A stretch of 64,000 bases of DNA from Chlorobiota bacterium (lineage in GTDB: Bacteria > Bacteroidota > Chlorobiia > Chlorobiales > Chlorobiaceae). The stretch covers positions 62,001 to 126,000 of the forward strand of contig VGMX01000005.1 of the NCBI GenBank assembly GCA_016866305.1. The letters run 5' to 3'. Position numbers and translations under genes: made by a program. The first letter of the stretch is position 1; each line of letters starts with the position of its first letter. Of this stretch, positions 2,870 to 27,903 are shown piece by piece. The notes under the pieces were generated by a model. That model had not been told where the DNA came from and did no database searches. It worked only from the letters and a program-made list of their open reading frames with translations.

Positions 2870-3735
2870 ACGACCGGCAAACCCGTTTCGACATGCCCCC
2901 GCACACCGACGTGGCCTGGTGCCCCGGTTGCGGCAACCACCTGCTGCTCAGGGCGGTGAAGGGAGCCCTGGAGGAGTGCGGTATCGACCCCCTGCGGCTT
3001 GTCATGGTTTCGGGCATCGGACAGGCGGCAAAAGCGCCGCAATACATCAGCTCACACATGTTCAACGGCCTGCACGGCAGGGCGCTGCCTGCAGCGCTCG
3101 GCATCAGGCTTGCGAACCGCAACCTCACGGTGGTGGTGGAGTCGGGAGACGGAGACATGTACGGTGAAGGGGGCAACCACTTCCTGCACGCCATCCGCAG
3201 GAACTTCGACGTGACCGTGATCGTGCACAACAACATGGTGTACGGCCTCACCAAGGGGCAGGCTTCCCCGACCTCGCAGACCGGCATGAAGACGCCGGTG
3301 CAGGTGCAGGGGGTGATGCTTGAACCCTTCAACCCGCTTGCCGTGGCCATTGCGCTCGATGCACCGTTCGTGGCGCGGAGCTTCGCGGGAGACGAGGCGC
3401 TCACGCAACGCATCATCGCCGAAGCCATCCGGTTCAGGGGGTGCGCCATCGTGGATGTGTTCCAGCCCTGCGTGATCTTCAACAGGCTGAACACCTACCA
3501 GTGGTTCCGCGAGCACACCGCTCCCGTGCCGGAAAGCCACGACCCCACAGACCGGCTTCAGGCCTTCGCGCTTGCCCTGCAGAGCGAGCCGCTGCCGCTC
3601 GGAGTGTTCTACCGCAACGAAAACCGGGCGCTGTACGAGGATTTGGTCGCCATTGCCGAAGAGCCGCTGTTCCGGCAGCCGCCACCGTCCCTGGAGGCCA
3701 TCGAGCGCATGCTCGGCCCTTTCCGGCAAGGCTGA
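2866..3735 (+). CDS. korB: 2-oxoacid:ferredoxin oxidoreductase, beta subunit (TPP-binding)
   Basis: 289-aa beta subunit. It shows WCPGCGNHLLLRAV with the cluster cysteines, the GIGQAAKAPQYI segment, the thiamine-diphosphate/Mg motif VESGDGDMYGEGGNHFLHAI (GDGD followed by N) and VYGLTKGQASPTS, all hallmarks of Kor/Por/Vor beta chains. It joins with KorA in a cytoplasmic heterotetramer that transfers electrons to or from ferredoxin. The start at 2866 overlaps the korA stop and is followed by a long frame ending 35 bp before the next gene. Length and motif order match korB of the reductive TCA cycle. No truncation is seen. Confidence 0.94.
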   Translation: MNDRQTRFDMPPHTDVAWCPGCGNHLLLRAVKGALEECGIDPLRLVMVSGIGQAAKAPQYISSHMFNGLHGRALPAALGIRLANRNLTVVVESGDGDMYGEGGNHFLHAIRRNFDVTVIVHNNMVYGLTKGQASPTSQTGMKTPVQVQGVMLEPFNPLAVAIALDAPFVARSFAGDEALTQRIIAEAIRFRGCAIVDVFQPCVIFNRLNTYQWFREHTAPVPESHDPTDRLQAFALALQSEPLPLGVFYRNENRALYEDLVAIAEEPLFRQPPPSLEAIERMLGPFRQG

Positions 3736-3770
3736 GGGGATATGCCTGTCAATCATACAGGAGAAAAACC

Positions 3771-4109
3771 ATGAGCGGACTTGACAACATGGCCTGCGAA
3801 CCGTGCCGGAAAGGCGCAGTCGCGCTCTCCGGAGAGGAGGTGGCGCAGCTGCTGCAGGAGATTCCCGGCTGGGAGGTGGAGAGCCTGGAGGGCGTGCCGC
3901 GTCTCGGGCGCACCTTCACCTTTCCCGATTTCCGGAGCGCACTTGATTTCACTCTCAGCGTTGGGGAGCTTGCCGAGCTTGAAGGGCACCATCCCAGGCT
4001 CGTGACCGAGTGGGGCCGGGTGCGGGTGGAGTGGTGGACCCATTCGGTGGGCGGCCTGCACCGCAACGACTTCATCATGGCCGCCCGAACGAGCACCCTC
4101 GCTGCCTGA
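3771..4109 (+). CDS. phhB: 4a-hydroxytetrahydrobiopterin (pterin-4a-carbinolamine) dehydratase
   Basis: 112 aa. The family core is visible: PGWEVESLEGVPRLGRTFTFPDFRSALDF, then GELAELEGHHPRL, where the conserved His-His-Pro forms the active site, and VRVEWWTHSVGGLHRNDF near the end. The enzyme dehydrates 4a-hydroxytetrahydropterin. In bacteria without an aromatic hydroxylase, homologues are also invoked in pterin or molybdopterin recycling. The ATG at 3771 follows ACAGGAGAAA, a good ribosome-binding site; a longer upstream frame exists but would overlap korB heavily, so I reject it. It may be the third gene of the kor operon (35-bp gap). No further gene is evident from 4110 to 4339. Confidence 0.88.
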   Translation: MSGLDNMACEPCRKGAVALSGEEVAQLLQEIPGWEVESLEGVPRLGRTFTFPDFRSALDFTLSVGELAELEGHHPRLVTEWGRVRVEWWTHSVGGLHRNDFIMAARTSTLAA

Positions 4110-24284: not shown

Positions 24285-24782
24285 ATGAGCTTTGCCGGAC
24301 TTCTGGAGGAGTTTGTTGCCGATATCGGCTGGAAAGACGAGATAGAAACGCTTGAAGATGAAGCTCTCAGCCGTCTGGCCGTAAGGCTGAAGGTCGGCGC
24401 CGGCTCCTTCCGCCTGCTTCTGGAAGGGTACGAGGCGCAGCAGTGGCTCGTGCTCTCTCTTTATGCGCCTTTTCCGGCCAGGCAGGAGACGCTTGTCGAT
24501 CTCTGTCTGCTCTTCAATTACCTGAACGCAACCTTCAGCTATCCGGGACATATCTGCGCGGAGGACGAGGCCGTCTGCTACAGGCATATTGTTGATGCGG
24601 GAGCTTCAGGTTCCGGATTCGGGTTCATCTACAATATGCTCGGCGCCGCAACCGACCTGTTCGAACGTCATGCAGCCGTGATAGAGGCTGTTGCTGCAGG
24701 AGAGGCCGGCTATGAGGATGCGCGCATGATGATTGAAAGGGGGAGCCAGAGCAGGGGCCTGTCAGAAGAGGAAACACATTAA
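24285..24782 (+). CDS. YbjN-like domain protein (type III secretion chaperone-like fold)
   Basis: 165 aa. The ATG at 24285 follows CCGGAGG, a strong ribosome-binding site. The sequence (LRLKVGAGSFRLLLEGYEAQQWLVLSLYAPFP, ETLVDLCLLFNYLNATFSYPGHI, ICAEDEAVCYRHIVDAG) has the alternating helix-strand layout of YbjN/T3SS-chaperone-like domains, in which an N-terminal helix precedes an antiparallel sheet. A C-terminal helix contains FERHAAVIEAVAAG. Family members are cytosolic with no enzymatic motif. Its stop overlaps the convergent radical SAM gene by four bases. Family assignment is by pattern only. Confidence 0.5.
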   Translation: MSFAGLLEEFVADIGWKDEIETLEDEALSRLAVRLKVGAGSFRLLLEGYEAQQWLVLSLYAPFPARQETLVDLCLLFNYLNATFSYPGHICAEDEAVCYRHIVDAGASGSGFGFIYNMLGAATDLFERHAAVIEAVAAGEAGYEDARMMIERGSQSRGLSEEETH

Positions 24783-25828
24783 GGTTTCCCGTTCGGACGA
24801 TCATGGCGGACCGCTTCGAGGATTCCTCTGCGAATGGTCAGTTCCGCGGCTTTTTCTTCTGCAAACGAAGCAAGCACTTCGCGGGTTTCGGTTCTGGTAA
24901 AGATGTCATTGCACAGATGACAATGGTTCACATACCGTTCCCTGAAGGCAATGGAAGGGTTTTTCTCCAGGATGAATTTTCTTATTCCGTATGGCCCCTC
25001 GAGAGCCAGCCAGTTTGCGATCAGGTCGCTGTTTGCGGTTTCCAGCAATTCCGCGATTCTCGATGCATCCCAGAAGCCTGCTCCAAGTTCAGGGACATGC
25101 TGTTCCATCATGCCGCAACAAATGCGCAACTCCCCGGATGGCGAAATCACGAGGCTCTCAAGAACGCTGCAGCATGGAGATGACCATGCTGCGGGACTTT
25201 CGGGATAGATGATGTAATCCTCTTCACGCAGGAGGTCGCAACCATGGCCGACCGGAACGGTAAGGGATGAGCTGTACAGGTTTTCCCCATCCTGAGCGGT
25301 CCTGCCCGGTTTGAATTCGCTCAGATGCACGCCCAGAAACTCTCCAAGATATTCGGGAGTAATTCTGGTGCCGACAACCCGTTTATGGGCAATGAGCAGC
25401 GGCATCCCGATCTCTTTGGCCGCCCGGAAGGCATGGCGAAGGTTGGCGAGAGGGATGAACTCCTGATGGAGATCGTCGCAACTGAAGTTGATTTCGCTCA
25501 GACCCTTTTCCTGCAATCTTCCGAGGATGTTCCTGGCCTTTTCTGCCGTTGTTGCCCAGAAAGCGTTGGTGACCACGCGGGTTCCCATGCCCCGGGCGCT
25601 GGCGAATGCGATCGCTTCCTCCACGTCGTGCATTTTCAGCAGTGGTTCTCCACCGGTGAAAACAGCAAGGGATAGCGGGAGGTAACGATCAAGGGTTTCA
25701 ATCACCTCCCGCATGAATGCCGCATCAAGAAAAGGGCCGCCGAAAGGTCCGGAGCGGGTTACGCAGTACTTGCAGCTTACCGGACAGTCATAGGTTACTG
25801 AAAAAACAATACTGTAACTTTTTGCCAT
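24779..25828 (-). CDS. Radical SAM enzyme with extra C-terminal cysteines
   Basis: 349 aa. The [4Fe-4S]-SAM motif is CPVSCKYC (Cys15, Cys19, Cys22, CxxxCxxC), with the SAM-binding segment FTGGEPLLKMHD at about 58-69. The C-terminal third has two further Cys groups: SSPCCSVLESLVISPSGELRICCG and NHCHLCNDIF. They are arranged like auxiliary clusters of SPASM/Twitch-type maturases, and the SPSGELRICC phrase is typical of that domain. The gene lies 20 bp behind, and on the same strand as, a protein with an NHLP-like leader motif, so peptide maturation is a good hypothesis. No protease or ABC exporter is adjacent. Its convergent partner overlaps by four bases. Confidence 0.88.
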   Translation of the reverse strand: MAKSYSIVFSVTYDCPVSCKYCVTRSGPFGGPFLDAAFMREVIETLDRYLPLSLAVFTGGEPLLKMHDVEEAIAFASARGMGTRVVTNAFWATTAEKARNILGRLQEKGLSEINFSCDDLHQEFIPLANLRHAFRAAKEIGMPLLIAHKRVVGTRITPEYLGEFLGVHLSEFKPGRTAQDGENLYSSSLTVPVGHGCDLLREEDYIIYPESPAAWSSPCCSVLESLVISPSGELRICCGMMEQHVPELGAGFWDASRIAELLETANSDLIANWLALEGPYGIRKFILEKNPSIAFRERYVNHCHLCNDIFTRTETREVLASFAEEKAAELTIRRGILEAVRHDRPNGKP

Positions 25829-25848
25829 TGCATCAGAAGCGGAGCGTT

Positions 25849-26418
25849 TCAGAATTTAATGGCTACCGAGTCGATGACCTTTTTCAGGGTATCAGCCGAA
25901 AGCAGCGGTGTTCTGTCGAAGCGTTCACGGATATTGTCCGGAAATATCGAGGAGCCGCTGAACTTGGTGGTACTCCATGATTCGGTTTTGCTGTTTGCCA
26001 CGGCTTCCGTTTTCGGATCGAATTCCGTGGATCTGCCCCTGTTTGATTCGCTCTTCGTATCCGAGTAATAGATATCAGTGGAGGCAGCGGCTGCCACGGC
26101 AACTTCCCTGATTCTGATGCGTCCTGCATCGATTTCAAGCAGCGGCAGCCTGAAAATGTCCTCGAAATGAAGCTTCTTGCGTGATTTCCGTACGGCATTC
26201 CGGATCCGTTCAATGGTAAAGCGGAATGCAACGACCATCTCTCCGGTCACATCACCGGCAATTTCCAGCCCATGGCGGCTCATGGCTCCTTTCGGGTTTT
26301 CGAGAAAAACAAGGTATGCCTCATCATCGAAAATGATGTTTTTCAGAAATGTCTGGAGGGTCGGCGAGGGGAGCCCTATCGAGGCGTTGATGCGGCCGGG
26401 TTTTGCTTTTTTTTCCAT
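25849..26418 (-). CDS. NHLP-leader-like protein, possible RiPP precursor for the radical SAM enzyme
   Basis: 189 aa with a clean GGAGG site before the ATG at 26418. Residues 30-53 (FDDEAYLVFLENPKG, MSRHGLEI) resemble the nitrile-hydratase-type leader peptide (NHLP) pattern: acidic residues, hydrophobic helix, (D/N)P-K-x-A/G, G-h-E-h. Residues 60-110 form a basic helical-strand part (FTIERIRNAVRKSRKKLHF). Residues 112-157 are Ser/Thr/Lys/Asp-rich and low in hydrophobics, a plausible modified core, with no Cys at all. The C-terminus is short and hydrophobic (VIDSVAIKF). The neighbour is a radical SAM protein. The precursor idea is an inference; a substrate protein of other kind is possible. Confidence 0.55.
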   Translation of the reverse strand: MEKKAKPGRINASIGLPSPTLQTFLKNIIFDDEAYLVFLENPKGAMSRHGLEIAGDVTGEMVVAFRFTIERIRNAVRKSRKKLHFEDIFRLPLLEIDAGRIRIREVAVAAAASTDIYYSDTKSESNRGRSTEFDPKTEAVANSKTESWSTTKFSGSSIFPDNIRERFDRTPLLSADTLKKVIDSVAIKF

Positions 26419-26656
26419 GAAGGTTTCCTCCGTGTCGGTTAATGAGTAATTGAGGGTGATTTTTCCCGCGCATTTCCGCGCCCTAAGGCGGTGAATCCGG
26501 AGCGGTTCACGCGAGTTGAGGCACTATGGGGTTTCGGAAATCCTTGGGGGTACTGCATACCTTGAAAGTAGAAAAAATAGAGCATTCTCCAACGAAAATA
26601 TCATGGATCGGTCCTGCCGCAAGGTATCCGTCACACGCTTGCCCCGGCGGCAGGAT

Positions 26657-27310
26657 TCATTGAATCCGGACGGTCCTGCCGGGATTGATCTGTTTCAGCC
26701 GGAGACTCGCGTTTGCACCCACGTTGACCAGCAGGTGCATCTTTTTGCTGTCGAGCACGATGTCGCATTTTTTCACCCGGAGCGAGTCCATTTTCAGATC
26801 GATCACCTTGCCGGCCCTGCCTTTGGCGATTGCGTTGTTGATGATGCCCGGTACTTTGCCGATGAGTGTGTCGAGCCGGAGGTTCAGTTTCGTTGCAACC
26901 GTGTCGCGCACGAATTCGTGCAGCAGATCGTCTCCGGAGCGGACAATGGCGTTTTCCGTCCGGAGCGAGTAATCGAAATCCCGTATATGCACCACCTGCT
27001 CAGGAACATCGAAAACCACCCGGCCGCTTGTCACGACATATCCGGCCAGATCTCTTCCCGTGCTGATACCGATGGAGAGGCCTTTCTTGGAGGCATAGGC
27101 TTTTATTGCCGAAATGGTAACGGTGTATCCCTTTTTCGAAAGGGTTTTTCCCCTGAGATGCCGGTTAAGCTGATCGTTGATCTCTTCGAAGGTGGTGAAT
27201 GCGTAAAGCGTGATGTCGGAGTCCTGTTTCCTCTCTCCTGATCCGAGTTTCCTGAATTCGGGCAGAGGATTCGGGGCTGCGATTGCCGTGGTGTCGGGAA
27301 GCAGCGTCAT
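26657..27310 (-). pseudogene. C-terminal half of a split DUF4403 protein
   Basis: 217 codons from ATG 27310 (MTLLPDTTAIAAPNPLPEF...). LYAFTTFEEINDQLNRHLRGKTL, TVTISAIKAYASKKGLSIGIS, LAGYVVTSGRVVFDVPEQVVHIRDFDYSLRTENAI and NLRLDTLIGKVPGIINNAI match the C-terminal domain of DUF4403 proteins, which are about 450 aa in one piece. The N-terminal half lies immediately upstream in another frame (27307-27903), and the start here overlaps its stop as ATGA. About 80 residues expected in the middle (the W/P-rich linker) are missing. An internal deletion plus frameshift, or a functional split, is possible. Confidence 0.65.
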
Positions 27311-27903
27311 TTGAGCATCGATACGGGTAAAACAGGTGATACTTTCTCGACAAGAGGGCGGAGGTTTTTTCTGAAAGGGCCGATCCGTGTGACGGGGTCG
27401 CTGATCCACCGGATCTTCCTGATGCGGAACCCTGTGACGATGTTCCAGTTCCGGTCGATACTTGCCGGTGTCGATAACGTGACGATGAAGGTGCTGTGAA
27501 CCGGTTTTACCTGGCGTGAGATCGTTCTGCCGAACCGGCTGTCGAGGAGCTCCGCATCGACTTTAAGCGGAAAGGTGCAGATCAGTTCTTTACCGTTCGA
27601 GCCGATACTGATGTCACCGTTTCTGGTGAGCGCCAGTGCGATTTTTTCTTTTCCGCCGTTGCCGGAAAGAAGGTTTTTCTGCAGAAAGGTGCCCCGGATC
27701 TTGCCGTTCAGATATTCTGAAAGCGTTCGTGTTTCGAAGTGCACCGGCAGGTTGAATGTCGAAGGAGGAATCCTGACGGCTGTCGTGTCTTCAATGGGGT
27801 CGGGTGCCCGGTCATGATCGGACTGCGAGATTCTCCGGATGAGCAACAGTGCGCACACGGCTGCGGCAAGCAGGATTCCTGCCGTCACGAGGGCTTTTTT
27901 CAT
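27307..27903 (-). pseudogene. N-terminal half of a split DUF4403 protein
   Basis: 198 codons. An N-terminal membrane anchor or signal (MKKALVTAGILLAAAVCALLLI) is followed by FNLPVHFETRTLSEYLNGKIRGTFLQK, LTRNGDISIGSNGKELICTFPLKVDAEL, STFIVTLSTPASIDRNWNIVTGFRIRKIRWISDP and FRKNLRPLVEKV, the N-terminal part of DUF4403. Reading ends at a TGA inside the next half's ATGA. Such proteins are exported or anchored and of unknown, probably lipid-binding (tubular lipid-binding-like) function. Together the halves account for the family except the central linker. Confidence 0.65.

Follow-up and report, generated by a model that had tools for sequence, protein, structure and literature searches.

A candidate two-gene peptide-modification cassette pairing an EpeE-type radical SAM enzyme with a proteusin-like precursor protein in a Chlorobiota bacterium

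We analysed a stretch of 64,000 nucleotides (the window) from a Chlorobiota bacterium and found two adjoining genes that probably form a peptide-modification cassette, in which an EpeE-type epimerase would act on a 189-aa substrate, a proteusin-like precursor. All features of the pair lie on the reverse strand. The precursor gene (25849–26418), recognized from its ORF and a leader-profile match, encodes a Cys-free protein and has a strong ribosome-binding site (GGAGGAAACCTTC-ATG). After a spacer of 20 bp (25829–25848) follows the gene of a 349-aa radical SAM enzyme (24779–25828), assigned to the EpeE/YydG-type peptide epimerases from Pfam, NCBIfam TIGR04078, a PDB profile and Foldseek. The initial annotation had described this arrangement correctly and proposed a RiPP system; we support that reading, and a survey of the neighbourhoods of related enzymes is the decisive evidence. 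Its word "new" is fair for the combination, each element of which has a known counterpart. We add to it the EpeE/YydG type of the enzyme and a predicted modification, L-to-D epimerization. The gene pairing, the enzyme's family, fold and catalytic cysteines, the leader relationship and the register of the core were all established by computation.

The enzyme is of the EpeE (YydG) type by family, fold and catalytic cysteines. Pfam Radical_SAM matches it (E 1e-11), and its best NCBIfam match is TIGR04078 (YydG epimerase), as was the case for all five relatives scanned. The TIGR04078 score of 66.6 bits does not reach the equivalog cut-off of 300, and by sequence the enzyme is best classed as a relative, not an equivalog. 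We built a profile from the window enzyme and 22 relatives; its sequence identity to relatives is only 20–32%. Eight cysteines are invariant in the 23 aligned sequences: C15, C19, C22, C219, C237, C238, C303 and C306. Against the PDB, the profile matched EpeE/YydG over its full length (E 2.4e-39) with all eight cysteines aligned; the identity between the window enzyme and EpeE is ~16%. The CxxxCxxC motif of the radical SAM [4Fe-4S] cluster (C15, C19, C22; 25763–25786) is as first annotated, and the "two C-terminal Cys groups" noted behind it are in fact three (C218/C219, C237/C238, C303/C306). From the EpeE alignment, C219 and C237 (25115–25174, a segment that includes C238) and the CxxC pair C303 and C306 (24911–24922) are predicted ligands of an auxiliary cluster. 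C238 aligns to PDB position 248, which is EpeE Cys223 (the PDB numbering carries a 25-residue tag offset, verified by the D210A variant at 235). In EpeE, Cys223 is the proposed H-atom donor, with recycling of the thiyl radical ascribed to the auxiliary cluster (PMC8326336, PMC5682303).

The fold agrees with the family. An AlphaFold model of the enzyme (pLDDT 87.7) was obtained from an alignment of the window enzyme and the relatives' locus rows, with the nine annotated-record rows of the 23 left out. Its best Foldseek match was EpeE (E 8.6e-19, TM 0.77/0.84). The nine best PDB matches were all EpeE (E 8.6e-19 to 4.6e-18, TM 0.76–0.77) and the next was SkfB (E 2.9e-8, TM 0.49).

The initial annotation had seen an NHLP-like leader in residues 30–53 of the precursor, which read FDDEAYLVFLENPKGAMSRHGLEI as quoted, and had held that the lack of any leader-model hit would refute the proposal. 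Taken literally, that is what the search returned: no Pfam or NCBIfam model, NHLP models and the proteusin leader model TIGR03793 included, matched the 189-aa protein at E <= 1, and PHROGs gave no match either. The direct leader claim is to that extent weaker than first put forward. A significant resemblance emerged only with a profile trained solely on partner proteins that adjoin distant relatives of the enzyme, the window protein being left out. This profile matches the 189-aa protein at residues 21–51 (11.7 bits, E 1e-5), with a score above that of 2000/2000 shuffles, and the protein is its sole match in the whole window genome. Alignment of the leader to the relatives' leaders with hhalign gave P 2.6e-5. 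AlphaFold was confident in the leader only (helices 19–30, 32–40 and 42–47, pLDDT about 86–92) and left the remainder disordered. From these three lines we place a putative NHLP-clan-like leader at residues 19–53 (LQTFLKNIIFDDEAYLVFLENPKGAMSRHGLEI; 26260–26364). The top Foldseek matches of the modelled leader, none of them significant, were the RiPP precursors SonA, Os1348 and a proteusin, for which a common fold has been described (PMC10858898). The 189-aa protein has no Gly-Gly cleavage site ahead of its core.

Do the relatives of the enzyme also adjoin such proteins? A neighbourhood survey of the family had been suggested at the outset, and it bore the proposal out. With the leaders of each locus removed from the profile in turn, a leader-bearing partner was found beside the enzyme in 14 of 26 relatives (E <= 1.5e-4, 7.8–43 bits), and 0/1032 ORFs from other radical SAM loci matched (best 3.1 bits). 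Seven further loci (L036, L039, L048, L051, L055, L133, L134) have a partner candidate by eye only; L038, L040, L042, L045 and L047 have no partner or an unclear one. Allochromatium L038 was rejected as a paired locus, having a different neighbour and no leader match. The partners share a helical leader segment, "F..[DN]P...L...". Unlike the window protein, relatives' leaders match the NHLP-related RiPP model TIGR04509 (E 2.6e-4, 1.2e-3) and the Os1348/NF038399 NHLP clan (E 3.8e-4), all below the curated cut-offs. A Thermogemmatispora locus (L051 3573–5761) encodes four tandem precursor paralogues whose leaders are 72–91% identical and whose cores are 6–44% identical; conserved leaders with variable cores are a RiPP hallmark. 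The same paralogues differ in their hydrophobic C-termini. The family as a whole thus combines a conserved leader, a variable core and an adjacent maturase in several genomes, and the window protein joins it through leader homology.

Parity tests and a MAFFT alignment with the relatives' NANANA/VAVAVA cores place the predicted core at residues 106–157 (25948–26103). The alignment and the low model confidence set off a C-terminal follower, residues 158–189 (25852–25947); several relatives' precursors also align with a tail after the core. The core proposed at first therefore starts at about 106, not 112, and gains a follower; the view that it is Cys-free and would need a non-thioether modification holds. 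Thioether (sactipeptide/ranthipeptide) chemistry was rejected because the substrate contains no Cys at all. Within residues 107–151, A/S/T occupy 17/23 odd positions versus 5/22 even ones (Fisher 9e-4). A parity scan of the whole protein gave p 0.0026 and an earlier class-based parity test p 0.006. By register score the protein shares 8th place among 897 proteins, tied with one family precursor (L033) and close to three others (L044, L032, L036). The parity classes were chosen after inspecting the sequence, so we treat the register as supportive evidence only. PoyD epimerizes at each 1,3-position (PMC8326336), and the odd-position register would fit such a pattern.

The cores of the relatives are of several kinds. 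Asn-Ala repeats occur in partners from Rhizobium, Collinsella, Klebsiella and Acidobacteria, the Thermus partner has Asn at alternate positions, and other partners have alternating V/A-rich stretches. The window core is hydrophilic, unlike these hydrophobic or Asn-rich cores. The C-terminal part of the Asn-Ala precursors corresponds to Pfam DUF5969 (L032 aa 140–231, gene 257–955; L033 aa 160–239, gene 3231–3956), and this domain of unknown function thereby gains a context.

From these features we infer how the cassette might work. The helical NHLP-clan-like leader (about residues 19–80) would mark the substrate for the enzyme. The enzyme would cleave SAM and take the C-alpha hydrogen from core residues; the C238 thiol would give a hydrogen back on the opposite face, yielding D-residues, and the auxiliary [4Fe-4S] cluster (C219/C237/C303/C306) would regenerate the thiol. 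Repeated epimerization at every second core residue (odd positions 107–151) would produce a D/L-alternating segment, which could form a polytheonamide-like beta-helix. The product may remain a full-length modified protein or be released by general proteases, because genome-wide searches found neither Peptidase_C39 nor, in a search run without a positive control, a partner methyltransferase, and because we saw no immunity gene for the pair and no signal sequence in the 189-aa protein. The absence of an adjacent transporter or protease, noted in the initial annotation, was confirmed among the window neighbours. We tentatively raise a more specific outcome, which we think possible but on balance unlikely: an intact cytoplasmic protein with an internal segment of ~45 residues carrying some 20 alternating D-residues, a D/L beta-helix flanked by L-protein. 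If true, this would be radical SAM epimerization put to work at the scale of a protein.

Several relatives' loci point to another role, that of a secreted, membrane-active antibacterial peptide or protein such as a bacteriocin-like pore. In some of the clusters, genes for a methyltransferase (MTS), a B12-radical SAM enzyme and SdpI join the pair; others are gene pairs only, as in the window. By eye, several partners carry Tat- or lipoprotein-like N-terminal signals, with Tat-like ones in Thermus, Eleftheria, Xanthomonas and on a prophage contig; such signals would suit a protein that is exported folded and already modified. Where relatives have SdpI, Tat signals and hydrophobic, alternating cores, their products probably are membrane-active antibacterials. 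The SdpI-family genes recall the SdpC/SdpI toxin-immunity system, but the window has no SdpI, and SdpC is not known to rely on a radical SAM enzyme. For the window protein itself a secreted antibacterial is unlikely: signal sequence and immunity gene are lacking, the core is hydrophilic, and no C39 peptidase-transporter was found in the genome.

The pair might instead be a RiPP system whose EpeE-fold enzyme installs a different modification, a cross-link, cyclopropylglycine or dehydrogenation, at C-alpha or on a side chain. One radical SAM fold can give differing outcomes, identity to EpeE is low, and TvgB forms cyclopropylglycine on repeat cores (PMC9062424). We nevertheless consider this quite unlikely, given that the EpeE H-donor Cys and all auxiliary-cluster Cys are invariant, that other maturases (SkfB, CteB-like 5why, TigE 8vpo) give much poorer fits (TM about 0.45–0.50), and that a substrate without Cys permits no thioether.

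The distribution of the cassette raises the question of decay. The host genome (2.24 Mb) encodes the FMO protein (PF02327, E 2e-226), which marks the host as a green sulfur bacterium. The pair is present in 1/86 genomes of its family. A homologue of the 189-aa protein was not found in the 85 other family genomes, and closer homologues were absent from plasmids and from genome contigs covered by a pattern scan; matches at E 0.02–0.4 look like chance. The best full-length enzyme relatives in those 85 genomes are 27–28% identical, and none better appeared in 297 sampled genomes of the phylum. This chlorobial enzyme group (L002–L008) was not counted in the family because no comparable partner adjoins the enzyme. 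Plasmid-borne relatives (20–33% identity) occur in Rhizobium, Collinsella, Streptomyces, Thermus, Klebsiella, Eleftheria, Enterococcus, Lactococcus and the archaeon Halocatena. Sixteen further loci came from scanning genome contigs; relatives with a related precursor also lie on proviral contigs, and none were found in phages.

The neighbours of the pair encode an FAD-dependent oxidoreductase resembling sulfide:quinone reductase (SQR), YbjN, a DUF4403 protein, whose gene is broken, a helix-turn-helix protein and a photolyase. A sister genome keeps the SQR-like gene, YbjN, DUF4403 and the helix-turn-helix gene in the same order (52–89% identity) with a short YbjN–DUF4403 gap and without the pair. 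This conserved order and short gap mark the two genes as one lineage-specific insertion. The DUF4403 gene (26657–27903, reverse strand) has its N- and C-terminal parts in different frames and misses ~60 residues found in the sister genome. An imperfect 13-nt direct repeat (12/13; 24777–24789 and 26416–26428) lies exactly at both cassette ends; as a special signal it was dismissed, since its strength does not exceed that of seven other chance repeats nearby.

An acquired cassette whose core has lost its original sequence would explain why it occurs in one family genome only, next to a broken gene and with a hydrophilic core unlike those of the relatives. We find such a remnant very doubtful, since neither ORF is disrupted, no catalytic Cys has been lost, the ribosome-binding site is strong and the A/S/T register spans 45 residues. 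That the two genes are chance neighbours and the enzyme acts on another substrate is highly improbable: the 189-aa protein lacks a direct family-model match, but both genes share one insertion missing from the sister species, the relatives' enzymes adjoin leader-bearing proteins, and no other protein of the genome matches the leader profile.

An epimerase cassette, our preferred reading, resembles two known systems. The window enzyme shares with EpeE/YydG of the Bacillus subtilis epeXEPAB (yydFGHIJ) system its fold, a full-length profile match, the radical SAM and auxiliary-cluster Cys and the Cys223 equivalent. However, the substrate of EpeE is a short peptide and that of the window enzyme a 189-aa protein with an NHLP-like leader and an internal core; the window pair also lacks adjoining protease and ABC genes, and its enzyme stays below the TIGR04078 cut-off. 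Proteusins such as polytheonamide (precursor PoyA, epimerase PoyD) have an NHLP-clan leader, to which the putative leader of the window protein is probably related, and a repetitive Cys-free core in common with the window protein, whose every-second-residue register is like the 1,3 pattern of PoyD (PMC8326336). PoyD-type epimerases lack an auxiliary cluster and bear an RRE at the C terminus (PMC8326336), whereas the window enzyme is EpeE-type, conserves the auxiliary-cluster Cys and finds its best fold match in EpeE. Unlike in proteusins, the core lies inside the protein, ahead of a follower, and the window holds no tailoring enzymes.

EpeE and the proteusin epimerases have no significant homology (PMC8326336), and EpeE-type epimerases and proteusin-type precursors have so far been treated as separate lineages. 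The family described here unites an EpeE-type enzyme with NHLP-clan leaders and polytheonamide-like cores, in Bacteria and Archaea, often as the pair only; we found no description of this combination in the open-licence literature. Through this family, the ways in which leader class, epimerase type and D/L pattern are combined become open to experiment, and its compact two-gene systems could serve to produce proteins that contain D-residues.

Some relatives' loci are richer. Polytheonamide is tailored by PoyE and PoyB/C (PMC11285071), which the methyltransferases and B12-radical SAM genes beside relatives' Asn-rich cores resemble. Three clusters (L032 257–6144, L042 3917–9180, L044 5989–9879) contain an EpeE-type epimerase and a B12-radical SAM gene, with a methyltransferase in L032 and L042 and Asn-Ala repeat precursors in L032 and L044; these are polytheonamide-like sets with another epimerase class. 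In a Thermoplasmata archaeon (L055 268–1518), a 115-aa precursor ending in LAVAVVIAVAVAAA is followed by the enzyme and ABC genes. Finally, proviral contigs (L118 4971–7574, and L119–L123) carry a related epimerase, a Tat-signal precursor and a PH-domain membrane protein behind tail genes, much like a phage cargo gene set.
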